Shown here in pieces: positions 60,783 through 63,989 of a DNA stretch of 64,000 nt. This DNA is from Paenisporosarcina sp. HGH0030. GTDB taxonomy: Bacteria; Bacillota; Bacilli; Bacillales_A; Planococcaceae. Where the stretch lies: NCBI RefSeq assembly GCF_000411295.1, contig NZ_KE150423.1, positions 62,001 through 126,000 of the forward strand, in the 5' to 3' direction. The notes under the pieces were generated by a model. The model did not search any database and had not been told where the DNA came from. It was given only the letters and a program-made list of their open reading frames with translations. Each line of letters starts with the position of its first letter. Positions within the stretch are counted from its first letter, which is position 1. Position numbers and translations under genes: made by a program.

Positions 60783-61028
60783 ATGAGCAATATAGATAAA
60801 CGAAATCGTCTGGATGAAGAGGTTTTTAGTTATCGAGTGAGTAAAAATAATTCGGTCTTTATTGACTTTAAGGGGAAAGAAATCAAAATTGTAAAAGGCA
60901 AGGAAGCAGAGAGGTTGATTTCAAAAATTCAAGCGGCTGAAACAGATAAAGAAATCCAGTTGGCTCTTGCGAAAATCACAGGAAACTTTAAACATGGCAA
61001 TGAAAAAAACAGTAAAAAGAAGGCATAG
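60783..61028 (+). CDS. Small conserved-type protein (81 aa), unknown
   Basis: Charged, helical product with a central FIDFKGKEIKIVKGKEAERLISKI segment and a Lys-rich tail. It lies 25 bases after the GNAT gene and is probably cotranscribed; the start has a modest site (GGATG). There is no membrane helix or Cys. The stop codon lies inside the hairpin that follows. Confidence 0.65.
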   Translation: MSNIDKRNRLDEEVFSYRVSKNNSVFIDFKGKEIKIVKGKEAERLISKIQAAETDKEIQLALAKITGNFKHGNEKNSKKKA

Positions 61029-61054
61029 TTACCTAAATTTCAAGGTAACTATGC
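61022..61054. terminator. Terminator shared by convergent units
   Basis: GGCATAGTTACC / GGTAACTATGCC perfect 12-bp stem with a 9-nt loop. In the minus direction it is followed by TTCTTTTT, so it is mainly the terminator of the flavoprotein operon. Confidence 0.8.
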
Positions 61055-61063
61055 CAAAATTCA

Positions 61064-61261
61064 TCACTTATTAATTACACCAGTTGCCTGTATAAATGAC
61101 TGATAGGTTACTGGACCAAAGTGGTTCGGATTTCCTTTAAAGAATTTTTCGAGCATGTATTGTTGTGCACAGATAACGGAGCATTGCTTCGCTTGGATAA
61201 TTAAATTCAGATAAGCGATAAAATAAGCTATTGATAAATTCCCGCCATTGTTTACAACCAT
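61064..61261 (-). CDS. Small protein (65 aa) in flavoprotein operon
   Basis: A strong GGAGGG ribosome site six bases before ATG 61261 and an 18-base gap to the flavoprotein gene support it as a real cotranscribed gene. The sequence is helical with two cysteines four apart (CSVIC, residues 27-31) and a C-terminal HFGPVTYQSFIQATG. I do not recognise a family; if the operon is an arsenic response unit, the Cys pair may be relevant (inference). Confidence 0.6.
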   Translation of the reverse strand: MVVNNGGNLSIAYFIAYLNLIIQAKQCSVICAQQYMLEKFFKGNPNHFGPVTYQSFIQATGVINK

Positions 61262-61279
61262 TTTAAACCCTCCATATTG

Positions 61280-62608
61280 TTAACAACATGAACTCTTCCC
61301 ACCGATATTTGTACTGCAAACACCTGTTTCAGGTAAATCCAGTTCCACACGTTTTGCCGCATCCTGATCACCTGTTAAGTGGGCAACAATGGAACGGACT
61401 TGTTCGTAGCCAGTGGCCATTAAAAATGTTGGCGCACGTCCGTAACTCTTCATGCCCACAAGATAAAAGTTCTTTTCTGGTTGCCGAAGTTCAGCTTCTC
61501 CGTGAGGACGAACGGTCCCGCAGCTGTGAATATTCGGGTCAATAAGTGGTGCCAAGGCAGATACACTCTCGATAGCAGAATCAATGTCGAGTCTAATTTC
61601 ACGCAGGAAACTGAAATTGGGACGAGAACCAGTGTTTGCAATGATTTCATCGATATTATCAATTGAGTATCTCTCGTTTTTCATAGTACCATGAATGGTT
61701 AACTTGCCATTCTCTTTAGAGATTTCGTTTACCAGGAAAGGGGTATGAACGCTAATTTTGCCGCTGTCCACCAGTTGATGAATACGTGAACCTAATTGAC
61801 CTCTTGCTGGAAGTGCATCCCGGGATTCTCCACCATAAACTTCCTCGACACGATTCTTACGCAAAATCCACACGATTTCCGTTCCTTCCAATTCAGCTAA
61901 TTCCAAGATTGTATTGATTGCAGAATGACCACCACCTACAACAGCCACACGTTTTTGTTCAAATTTAATACGTTCGGATTCTTTTATATTTGGAATGCCG
62001 TATGTGATATGAGGTGAAAGCAATTCTTCCCCTTTTGTCCACACATTATCTGCATTCACAGGATTTGGTTGTGCCCAAGTACCAGTAGCATCTATGACTG
62101 CTTTTGCTTCAATTCTTTCAGTTGTGCCTTCTTCTTCGATATACAGGATGAAAGACTGTCCATCTCTGTTGGCATCTTTCATTTTGTCCATTCCCTGTTT
62201 ACTGATTGCCACTACTTTTGCATTTAATTTGATGAATGGGTTAATTTGAGGCAGATTGGCTAAAGGGATTAAATAGTCTTCCACAAGATCTTTACCAAAA
62301 GGTAATCTCTTCATGACAGGTGCCTTCCAGTGGCTTTCTTCCAATAGCTTCAAAGCCACTTTGTCGATATTATATTGCCAAGGGGAAAATAATCGGACGT
62401 GACCCCATTTTAAAATATTATGTCCTACTGTGGGTCCGGCTTCGATTATCAAAAACTGTTCGTTTTTAGCTGCCAGATGCGCAGCTGCAGCCAAGCCGAC
62501 TGGCCCTGCTCCGACGATTACCGTTGGCAAATTCGATTCCTCAAGTATAGATTCAGGAGAACTACAGCAATTCGTCAAAATGTTAAAACTCATTTTTTCA
62601 TTGTTCAT
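61280..62608 (-). CDS. FAD/NAD(P)-dependent oxidoreductase with vicinal cysteines (ArsO-like)
   Basis: A 442-aa flavoprotein of the monooxygenase type with two dinucleotide folds: GAGPVGLAAAAH near residue 30 for FAD and VVGGGHSAINTILELAE near 230 for NAD(P)H. An ATG motif precedes the second (IDATGTW). Unusual ends: Cys14-Cys15 in TNCCSSPES and Cys441-Cys442 at the very C-terminus (GGKSSCC). Such Cys pairs bind As(III) or Sb(III) in arsenic proteins, and flavoproteins of this class are found in ars clusters (family knowledge; exact reaction unproven). ATG 62608 follows GAGGGAC. It lies downstream of the MarR gene and a TTGCA-N3-TGCAA palindrome. Confidence 0.75.
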   Translation of the reverse strand: MNNEKMSFNILTNCCSSPESILEESNLPTVIVGAGPVGLAAAAHLAAKNEQFLIIEAGPTVGHNILKWGHVRLFSPWQYNIDKVALKLLEESHWKAPVMKRLPFGKDLVEDYLIPLANLPQINPFIKLNAKVVAISKQGMDKMKDANRDGQSFILYIEEEGTTERIEAKAVIDATGTWAQPNPVNADNVWTKGEELLSPHITYGIPNIKESERIKFEQKRVAVVGGGHSAINTILELAELEGTEIVWILRKNRVEEVYGGESRDALPARGQLGSRIHQLVDSGKISVHTPFLVNEISKENGKLTIHGTMKNERYSIDNIDEIIANTGSRPNFSFLREIRLDIDSAIESVSALAPLIDPNIHSCGTVRPHGEAELRQPEKNFYLVGMKSYGRAPTFLMATGYEQVRSIVAHLTGDQDAAKRVELDLPETGVCSTNIGGKSSCC

Positions 62609-62630
62609 CGTTAGTCCCTCTTTTCTTTGT

Positions 62631-62643
62631 TTGCATAATGCAA
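62631..62643. promoter_or_regulatory. Candidate MarR operator 1 (flavoprotein promoter)
   Basis: TTGCA-TAA-TGCAA, 23 bases before the flavoprotein start codon, on the edge of its ribosome site. The same arms recur at 63161. Confidence 0.65.
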
Positions 62644-62678
62644 GTATATAGTGAGTAAATAAGCAAGATTTCTCTTGC

Positions 62679-63125
62679 TCATATAATAGGCGTACAGCAC
62701 ACACTTGATTTTGCCATAGCATTGTTCAATAATTTAATAGATCTCAAGACTGTTTCTTGTTCAAATTCATTCATATGTGAAAAAATTTCATCCAAGTAGT
62801 TATTCAAGGAAGTTTCGATGGCAGTAGCCATGAATTTACCTTGAGTAGTTAAGGATAAAATATAATACCTTTTATCATCAAGGGAAGGGGATTTTGTGAC
62901 TAGTCCCATTTTGGTTAATGTTTGAATCTGTCTACTAAATGTCGTTACATCAATTGCCAAAAGCTCTGCAATTTGTTGCATGGTTGGTTCATGTTGTTTA
63001 TCAATTTCGTATAAAATATGACTATGCACAGCTGAAATATCAATGCCACCAATGGCGCAACAATTTTTATTCAAAAGGCCGAAGCGGCGGGTCAATACTT
63101 GAAATAACTCACGTTTGTTTTCCAT
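62679..63125 (-). CDS. MarR-family regulator with vicinal cysteines
   Basis: A 148-aa winged-helix repressor. DNA-binding core: TMQQIAELLAIDVTTFSRQIQTLTKMGLVTKSPSLDDKRYYILSLT (about 48-93). Cys22-Cys23 in the N-terminal helix (LNKNCCAIGG) and Cys143-Cys144 at the end (VCCTPII) could come together in the MarR dimer to form a soft-metal or organoarsenical sensor (inference). It is divergent from the acetyltransferase gene at 63217; palindromes TTGCA-N3-TGCAA lie on both sides of it, consistent with autoregulation. Confidence 0.85.
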   Translation of the reverse strand: MENKRELFQVLTRRFGLLNKNCCAIGGIDISAVHSHILYEIDKQHEPTMQQIAELLAIDVTTFSRQIQTLTKMGLVTKSPSLDDKRYYILSLTTQGKFMATAIETSLNNYLDEIFSHMNEFEQETVLRSIKLLNNAMAKSSVCCTPII

Positions 63126-63160
63126 GATTCACCTCTTTAATATAGTTATATGTTAATTGT

Positions 63161-63173
63161 TTGCAAAATGCAA
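63161..63173. promoter_or_regulatory. Candidate MarR operator 2 (divergent promoter)
   Basis: TTGCA-AAA-TGCAA midway between the divergent MarR and ArsN1-like genes. Identical arms to the site at 62631. Confidence 0.65.
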
Positions 63174-63216
63174 CTAAAAACTAAGATAAAATTAAATTGA
63201 TAAAGAAGGTATAAAA

Positions 63217-63714
63217 ATGTCCGTAAAAATTCGTCCCATGCTGGCAACTGACTGGCAAGAAGTAAAAGAGATTTACGAAGAGGGCATCAAATCAAAAAAT
63301 GCCACTTTTGAAACACAGGCACCCACGTATGAAAAATGGATGGAAACCTCTCATCCTGAGTGTCACATGGTTGCAGTAGAAAATAATCACGTGTTGGCTT
63401 GGGCGAAGGTGCTGTATACTTCGGCACGTCCTGTATATGCAGGGGTGGGTGAAGTTAGTATATACGTACATCCAGATGCGAAAGGTAGAGGTGTAGGCAA
63501 GCGTTTACTACAGGAACTAATCAAAACATCTGAACAAAAGGGTTTTTGGACATTAAAAGCAGTCATTTTCCCTGAAAATGTAGCGAGCCTCAAACTTCAT
63601 TTGTCCTGCGGTTTTCGGGAAGTCGGATTTCATGAGCGAATGGGTAAGATGGACGGGGTCTGGCGTGATAATACGGTATTGGAAAGACGCAGCACACTTG
63701 TAGGTATTGACTAA
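63217..63714 (+). CDS. ArsN1/phosphinothricin-type N-acetyltransferase
   Basis: A 165-aa GNAT enzyme of the Pat family. Motif A is VHPDAKGRGVGKRLLQ (about 87-102). The C-terminal block GFW...IFPENVASLKLHLSCGF and REVGFHERMGKMDGVWRD is the hallmark of the phosphinothricin/arsinothricin (ArsN1) acetyltransferases that acetylate the amino group of these glutamate mimics. AAGAAGGT precedes ATG 63217. Divergent from a Cys-pair MarR gene, it favours arsinothricin or a similar compound as substrate, but phosphinothricin or methionine sulfoximine are alternatives. Confidence 0.8.
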   Translation: MSVKIRPMLATDWQEVKEIYEEGIKSKNATFETQAPTYEKWMETSHPECHMVAVENNHVLAWAKVLYTSARPVYAGVGEVSIYVHPDAKGRGVGKRLLQELIKTSEQKGFWTLKAVIFPENVASLKLHLSCGFREVGFHERMGKMDGVWRDNTVLERRSTLVGID

Positions 63715-63748: not shown

Positions 63749-63989
63749 TGTTGATTAGACACTCCGGCGGAATTACGTGCGGGCAAGACCTCGCAGCGAG
63801 GACAAAGGAACGAAAGCTAGAACGCCACCTCCCTGCTCCTGCGGTTACTCGTCGCATAAAAAAGATTGCTCCTGCGGTTACTCGTCGCAAAATGCAATTT
63901 GTGGAAACGCCATCTTGAGCAACATCCTGTTGGCCCGAGGAGGCTTGCCTGTTCGTCCGCGGAAAGGGAGCAAATTCCCTAAATCAACA
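63749..63989. repeat. Intergenic modular repeat, copy 3
   Basis: Bounded by TGTTGATT (63749-63756) and AATCAACA (63982-63989). It contains two direct copies, 33 bp apart, of a 22-bp module at 63834-63855 and 63867-63888 that also occurs once, inverted, at 2078-2099, plus CCCGAGGAGGCTTGCC and CCGCGGAAAGGGAG motifs like copies 1 and 2. No gene is visible. Confidence 0.75.

Follow-up and report, generated by a model that had tools for sequence, protein, structure and literature searches.

To what do four adjacent genes rich in paired cysteines respond, and which protein controls them? The question is raised by Paenisporosarcina sp. HGH0030 (Planococcaceae), in a stretch of 64,000 nucleotides (RefSeq assembly GCF_000411295.1, contig NZ_KE150423.1, positions 62,001 to 126,000 of the forward strand; the whole stretch is called the window), which lies on contig 3 of the 3.52 Mb genome. 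A first-pass annotation, made from the letters alone, had proposed that a MarR-family regulator, a flavoprotein, a 65-amino-acid protein and a divergent acetyltransferase form a new and self-contained unit, controlled by the MarR protein, built on paired cysteines and directed against an organoarsenical or a related glutamate mimic. Three observations bear on this proposal: the linkage of the genes to ars genes, the conservation of cysteines, and the conservation and placement of a common operator. The gene set is almost certainly associated with arsenic, and the MarR protein very likely controls the genes through the palindrome TTGCA-N3-TGCAA, so that the proposed arsenic function and MarR control appear sound. 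The new element seems to be the MarR protein with its cysteine pairs, its operator and its regulon, and the effectors seem to be variants on known themes: the gene context of the flavoprotein agrees with that of the known ArsV family, and ArsN1-like acetyltransferases are known, which speaks against novelty of the whole module. A self-contained unit of four proteins built on paired cysteines is not supported.

The genes, the putative operators and the cysteine codons of the regulator are placed in the window as follows:

61064-61261, minus strand: 65-amino-acid protein (from the list of open reading frames (ORFs); an unnamed family that adjoins the flavoprotein in many loci)
61280-62608, minus strand: FAD/NAD(P)-binding flavoprotein, 442 amino acids, ArsV-like by context (ORF, domain and motif evidence)
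62631-62643: predicted MarR operator, TTGCATAATGCAA, immediately ahead of the flavoprotein start
62679-63125, minus strand: MarR-family regulator, 148 amino acids, with two cysteine pairs (ORF, Pfam, alignment)
62694-62699, minus strand: codons of MarR Cys143-Cys144
63057-63062, minus strand: codons of MarR Cys22-Cys23
63161-63173: predicted MarR operator, TTGCAAAATGCAA, in the gap between the MarR start and the acetyltransferase start
63217-63714, plus strand: GNAT acetyltransferase, 165 amino acids, ArsN1-A-like, divergent from the MarR gene (ORF, NCBIfam)

All four ORFs were confirmed where they had first been placed, and Pfam assigns three of them, as Pyr_redox_3 (flavoprotein), MarR (regulator) and GNAT (acetyltransferase). 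The closest titled relative found is Paenisporosarcina quisquiliarum, with 90% identity in the flavoprotein and 97% in MarR.

A cysteine-pair MarR among arsenic genes

The regulator belongs to the MarR family by Pfam (PF01047, 41.3 bits against a gathering score of 24.6), and reaches none of the named NCBIfam MarR models (best 44.5 of 125 bits). A reading as an ArsR/SmtB repressor was rejected (PF01022, HTH_5, 16.3 of 22 bits). In alignments with one sequence per locus above a length limit, window included (61 flavoproteins, 42 MarR proteins and 23 small proteins), Cys22 and Cys23 are kept in all 42 MarR sequences, and Cys143 and Cys144 in 41 each. The paired cysteines to which the first-pass annotation drew attention are, in this protein, a conserved trait.

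Relatives of the flavoprotein were found in 66 loci. Neighbours were counted within 6 kb in the 60 loci with a flavoprotein ORF of more than 1100 bp; neighbouring ORFs were clustered, and one representative of each cluster was named via NCBIfam and Pfam. The named clusters are ArsC, ArsB, ArsR (two clusters), ArsA, ArsD and ArsN1 family A, together with a dual-specificity phosphatase, a HesB-like protein and an MFS permease. At least one of ArsR, ArsA, ArsB, ArsC and ArsD is present in 43 of the 60 loci, which is a floor because Acr3 pumps were left out of the count, and one of ArsA to ArsD in 38; singly, ArsR occurs in 37, ArsC in 36 and ArsB in 32. ArsR takes the place of MarR ahead of the flavoprotein in 11/60 loci. 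In this survey the MarR of L004, L051 and L060 was missed owing to the choice of ORF. Set against the association are the 17 loci that lack all five of these ars genes in that range, among them the close relatives L003, L004 and L008, and the mutual relatedness of the loci, by which the counts are not independent events. The absence of ArsR, ArsB and ArsC noted earlier is true near the four genes, but the same contig has an ArsR-ArsB-ArsC operon at a distance of about 77.6 kb; Acr3 has no match anywhere in the genome.

Synteny had been chosen beforehand as a point on which the proposal could fail, and the homologues are syntenic. Among 200 genomes of the family, 76 contain a relative of MarR (E<=1e-20) and 107 one of the flavoprotein (E<=1e-100). 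In the best 68 of 80 MarR places (E up to 1.3e-50; the 12 weaker ones, with E 1e-27 or worse, were omitted), the flavoprotein follows less than 400 bp downstream on the same strand in 55, and this MarR leads 55 of the 117 flavoprotein places in these genomes. Across the order, it was found at E<=1e-35 in 71/261 genomes. Eight of the 13 MarR places without this flavoprotein downstream were fetched: one belongs to a congener without a flavoprotein next to MarR, and in five MarR stands beside an ArsO-like flavoprotein, whose gene is upstream of MarR in four (three calls come from model scans, at 271-281 of 425 bits, and two from blastp similarity, one of the proteins being partial on a short contig). 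In the remaining two, MarR stands ahead of a gene for an ArsP permease (PF03773, 149.9 and 155.4 bits against 32.3). Directly past the ArsP gene of one locus, a frame of about 50 residues (L089:2454-2606, minus strand) has three CC pairs and by eye resembles the cysteine-pair tails of the flavoproteins.

More distant relatives point in the same direction. The MarR of Pseudomonas nitroreducens, only 24% identical, keeps both cysteine pairs and leads ArsN1a and a flavoprotein. A relative on a Pseudomonas amygdali plasmid (L111:1-4498) has one CC pair close to the N-terminus and another at the extreme end; its gene is divergently oriented to arsQ and arsL/arsM, to which the annotation assigns arsinothricin export and biosynthesis, and adjoins an ArsR operon. 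For the arsinothricin pathway, control by an ArsR has been suggested, and the word MarR is absent from the available text of that paper (PMC8552651). On plasmids of Paenibacillus, the same kind of MarR directly precedes ArsN1a (P. lautus) or lies among ArsI, an arsenite methyltransferase and ars core genes (Paenibacillus sp. Cedars). In L107 (4475-6604), an arsenite methyltransferase near a cysteine-pair MarR has CC pairs in its own N-terminal stretch, and the ArsO-like frame ahead of it is split into two overlapping pieces. No arsenic-sensing MarR was found in the literature as searched at the level of titles and the openings of abstracts, subscription papers being mostly beyond reach.

These neighbours bear on the question of the ligand. 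One explanation is that the unit answers inorganic As(III) or Sb(III), with MarR sensing arsenite or antimonite and the flavoprotein oxidizing or otherwise handling the ion as an accessory to ArsB and ArsC. Most of the identified neighbours are indeed inorganic-arsenic genes, ArsC and ArsB foremost. However, the same kind of MarR is linked to ArsP, ArsN1a, ArsI and arsenite methyltransferase, and its distant relatives to ArsQ, ArsL and ArsM, all of which point to organoarsenicals, and the nearby ArsR genes could serve inorganic arsenic. An inorganic ligand as the main signal is therefore considered unlikely, and the partner genes seem to point broadly to organoarsenicals rather than to arsinothricin or a glutamate mimic in particular.

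A probable palindromic operator and its candidate regulon

The palindrome was first spotted in an ArsP locus, and the window contains exactly two exact copies, the sites at 62631-62643 and 63161-63173. Its distribution was surveyed in 41 loci (window included) with a MarR more than 45% identical to that of the window. Upstream of MarR, the core occurs with at most one mismatch in 37/41 loci (24 exact); within 130 bp past MarR, mostly ahead of the flavoprotein, it does so in 32/41 (18 exact). When these stretches were shuffled by mononucleotide, the figures were 0.9% and 0.2%, respectively. The upstream sites are concentrated between -41 and -46 relative to the MarR start, with -60 in the two Exiguobacterium loci. 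In 25 flavoprotein loci without this MarR, one operator site was found in 291 kb. The flanks suggest a fuller operator, TACTTGCA-N3-TGCAAGTA.

The position of the upstream site would suit repression: the operator overlaps a promoter-like match of MarR (63139-63167, minus strand) at its -35-like hexamer. This match is no more than a fit to the consensus; the stretch contains 15 of these, compared to 8.6 in shuffles.

Several findings weigh against the operator as a sufficient signal. It is absent from four of the 41 loci (L032, L038, L039 and L041), all of them operons in the order MarR-acetyltransferase-flavoprotein, and also from L026 and the Pseudomonas locus L084. When one mismatch is tolerated, the whole window holds six sites, close to the mean of 4.4 in shuffles, and the argument for the operator consequently rests on place and conservation. 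The genome has 14 exact sites (a reversed control pattern has 3), and ten of the 12 outside the locus, those within a set position limit, were analysed: six lie inside ORFs and four are intergenic. The 13-base core alone is therefore not specific.

Among the four intergenic sites, the best flank match is found in L096 (G000:C1:766000-769000), upstream of a DkgA-like aldo/keto reductase gene. Here two copies, one exact and one with one mismatch, sit 33 bp apart at 1465 and 1498; in L135 the sites are at 1587 and 1620. Both are exact in one congener, another has one-mismatch sites only, and four further loci that were fetched have none. The reductase is a possible further member of the regulon.

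The alternative partners of MarR offer a second view of the regulon. All seven fetched loci with an ArsO-like or ArsP gene have at least one exact or one-mismatch site ahead of that gene.

The flavoprotein, the acetyltransferase and the 65-residue protein

The open frame of the flavoprotein extends back to 62722 and overlaps the end of MarR; the ATG at 62608, which by eye is preceded by a ribosome-site-like stretch, gives the 442 residues. Further features of this part of the window are:

61022-61055, minus strand: terminator-like hairpin 3' of the flavoprotein and 65-residue genes, 13 pairs followed by a T run (the 64-kb stretch has three such patterns, compared to 2.0 in shuffles)
61283-61288, minus strand: codons of the C-terminal Cys441-Cys442 of the flavoprotein
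61520-61522, minus strand: codon of flavoprotein Cys363, in the motif HSCGTV

Cys363 is kept in 61/61 sequences, Cys431 in 60, Cys441 in 55 and Cys442 in 58, and the motifs GxGxxG and ATGTW, both present in the window protein, in 55/61 each. At least two CC pairs occur within the last 90 residues of 15/61 flavoproteins. The two cysteine pairs that the first-pass annotation saw in this protein exist, and the C-terminal one is conserved, but Cys14 and Cys15 are kept in only 27/61 and 32/61 sequences. Cysteine conservation as a check on the proposal hence holds for the MarR pairs and the C-terminal pair of the flavoprotein; it fails for the N-terminal pair, present in about half of the sequences, and for the 65-residue protein. 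In the latter, Cys27 is kept in 19/23 sequences and Cys31 in 5/23, and the claimed CxxxC pair is not a feature of the family, since the second cysteine is so rarely kept. Relatives of this small protein occur in 22 other loci; it has no Pfam match (19 family members scanned, best E 0.14), no NCBIfam match and no convincing match among PDB sequences (best E 0.69).

Which enzyme the flavoprotein resembles was approached by models and motifs. ArsO was rejected (NF040505, 52.9 of 425 bits), and on a Streptomyces plasmid one cluster holds both an annotated ArsO and, about 2 kb from it, a protein related to the window flavoprotein. Thioredoxin reductase (40.4 of 343.45 bits) and a MerA-like dithiol reductase (core CxxC or CxxxxC in 0/61) were discarded as well.

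The YpdA bacillithiol disulfide reductase (TIGR04018), the top NCBIfam match, leads to a different view of the locus, in which MarR would sense thiol or redox changes in general, in the manner of OhrR or SarZ, with arsenicals as one trigger among disulfide and electrophile stresses, and the flavoprotein would be a thiol-disulfide reductase. Cysteine-based switches are known in MarR proteins, and the operator of the DkgA-like aldo/keto reductase would suit such a role. However, the YpdA score is 64.3 of 339.9 bits, and GGGPCG, the motif that bears the YpdA active-site cysteine, has its cysteine in 0/61 sequences; core dithiol motifs are likewise lacking, and the recurrent neighbours are arsenic genes. 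A general redox sensor is accordingly judged improbable.

Gene context leads to ArsV, which is located in ArsR-ArsV-ArsK/ArsW operons of alphaproteobacteria and was reportedly discovered in Ensifer adhaerens ST2. An order of this type is met in relatives, though not at the window locus: in E. adhaerens E-60 (L082), a protein 46.8% identical to the flavoprotein is encoded between ArsR and ArsK, and on a plasmid of the Paracoccaceae (Neotabrizicola, L085) the order is ArsR-flavoprotein-MFS. According to the available text of a review, ArsV of Paracoccus sp. SY oxidizes methylarsenite, which ArsW, ArsP or ArsK extrude (PMC10080717), and ArsV is counted among the organoarsenical oxidases in the accessible part of another paper (PMC11719878). 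The flavoprotein likely works like ArsV, as an organoarsenical or antimonite monooxygenase, and probably detoxifies trivalent arsenic compounds. Two points count against this assignment: it draws on gene context rather than on a comparison with the ArsV sequence, and FMO and BVMO signature motifs occur in 0/61 flavoproteins. No model named ArsV is among the NCBIfam matches listed for the window proteins.

The acetyltransferase has ArsN1 family A (NF040503) as its best model, at 150.5 bits, ahead of ArsN1 B (74.5) and phosphinothricin acetyltransferase (52.6), and falls below the curated cut-off of 170 bits for family A; two other acetyltransferases from such loci pass it, at 214.5 and 234.1 bits. 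Structure 5jtf, which we take to be PpArsN1, matches at 39.2 bits, under phosphinothricin-acetyltransferase-like structures (74.5 bits and down). The earlier description of a full ArsN1-type block was thus too strong. A further reading, along the lines of the first-pass annotation, makes arsinothricin or a related glutamate mimic the specific target of the module, the acetyltransferase being the effector and the flavoprotein a helper. In its favour are the divergent ArsN1-like gene, seen in the window and in many relatives, the MarR-ArsN1a order in P. lautus and the distant MarR beside arsQ and arsL/arsM. It suffers from the sub-threshold score, from loci with MarR and flavoprotein in which blastp found no relative of the acetyltransferase (e.g., L006, L009, L010, L013 and L024) and from the pairing of flavoprotein and MFS genes, which resembles ArsV-ArsW, described in the available text on this pair as acting on methylarsenite. 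Arsinothricin specificity is very improbable on this balance.

Two observations concern the flanks of the locus. An 81-residue ORF (60783-61028, plus strand), convergent with the gene of the 65-residue protein and 92.6% identical in P. quisquiliarum, has no Pfam or NCBIfam match. By eye, a 22-base direct repeat is seen past the acetyltransferase gene (63835-63889; copies at 63835-63856 and 63868-63889).

Proposed mechanism and comparison with known systems

We infer from sequence the ligand and chemistry of the unit, binding and repression, and the parts played by each cysteine and by the 65-residue protein. In the model that we favour with measured confidence, the MarR repressor would bind (T)ACTTGCA-N3-TGCAAGT(A) in its own promoter region, common to the divergent acetyltransferase gene, and the palindrome ahead of the flavoprotein gene. 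The ligand would be a trivalent arsenical, for which an organoarsenical such as methylarsenite is the likeliest candidate and antimonite or arsenite are possible ones; held by the N- and C-terminal cysteine pairs, it would free MarR from the DNA. The flavoprotein, putatively an ArsV-type NAD(P)H/FAD monooxygenase whose tail bears a cysteine pair, would then oxidize the trivalent compound to a less toxic pentavalent form, and the ArsN1-like acetyltransferase may block amino-acid-like arsenicals. Inorganic arsenic would be left to the separate ArsR-ArsB-ArsC operon.

The wider claim, to which we incline by a small margin over doubt, is that cysteine-pair MarR proteins form a new class of arsenical-sensing repressors parallel to ArsR. 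Such a class would have a vicinal-cysteine site for a trivalent organoarsenical or antimonite, would control interchangeable organoarsenical defence genes (ArsV-like, ArsO-like, ArsP and ArsN1) through TACTTGCA-N3-TGCAAGTA, and would include a remote branch in proteobacteria whose members have these pairs and are encoded beside genes for arsinothricin resistance and biosynthesis. Bacterial arsenic sensing is mostly credited to ArsR; if the claim is true, this MarR branch, which has kept its cysteine pairs, operator and targets across the Bacillales and has distant relatives in Pseudomonas, would solve the sensing problem in yet another, independent way. It would also provide a short, testable operator with a list of candidate targets, help to annotate a flavoprotein currently named "NAD(P)-binding domain-containing protein" or "FAD-dependent oxidoreductase", and might yield a part for organoarsenical-selective biosensors.

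Among known systems, ArsV is similar in that its gene stands in ars operons next to ArsK or an MFS gene, as do the relatives in E. adhaerens and the Paracoccaceae, whereas the window flavoprotein is led by a cysteine-pair MarR instead of ArsR and adjoins the 65-residue protein and an ArsN1-like gene. ArsO is likewise an NAD(P)/FAD flavoprotein of ars clusters, and ArsO-like genes also occur beside the same kind of MarR; the window flavoprotein differs by its low ArsO score and by the coexistence of both kinds on the Streptomyces plasmid. ArsN1 family A is the top NCBIfam match of the acetyltransferase, which stays under its cut-off. ArsR/SmtB repressors can occupy the same position in the circuit, as ArsR does ahead of the flavoprotein in some loci, but they are another protein family, whose HTH_5 domain the window MarR matches only weakly. 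NemR, a TetR-family protein and in this unlike the MarR of the window, is likened to it here by description, not by sequence. In the available review text, NemR of Enterobacteriaceae is a repressor selective for trivalent organoarsenicals and is reported to control their oxidation, a non-ArsR solution to a similar task (PMC10080717). With MarR regulators such as those of the MexR, SlyA, AdcR and OhrR kinds, the window protein shares the MarR domain and, as predicted, a palindrome at its own and a neighbouring promoter; it is set apart by its conserved N- and C-terminal cysteine pairs, by its position outside the named NCBIfam models and by its linkage to arsenic genes.

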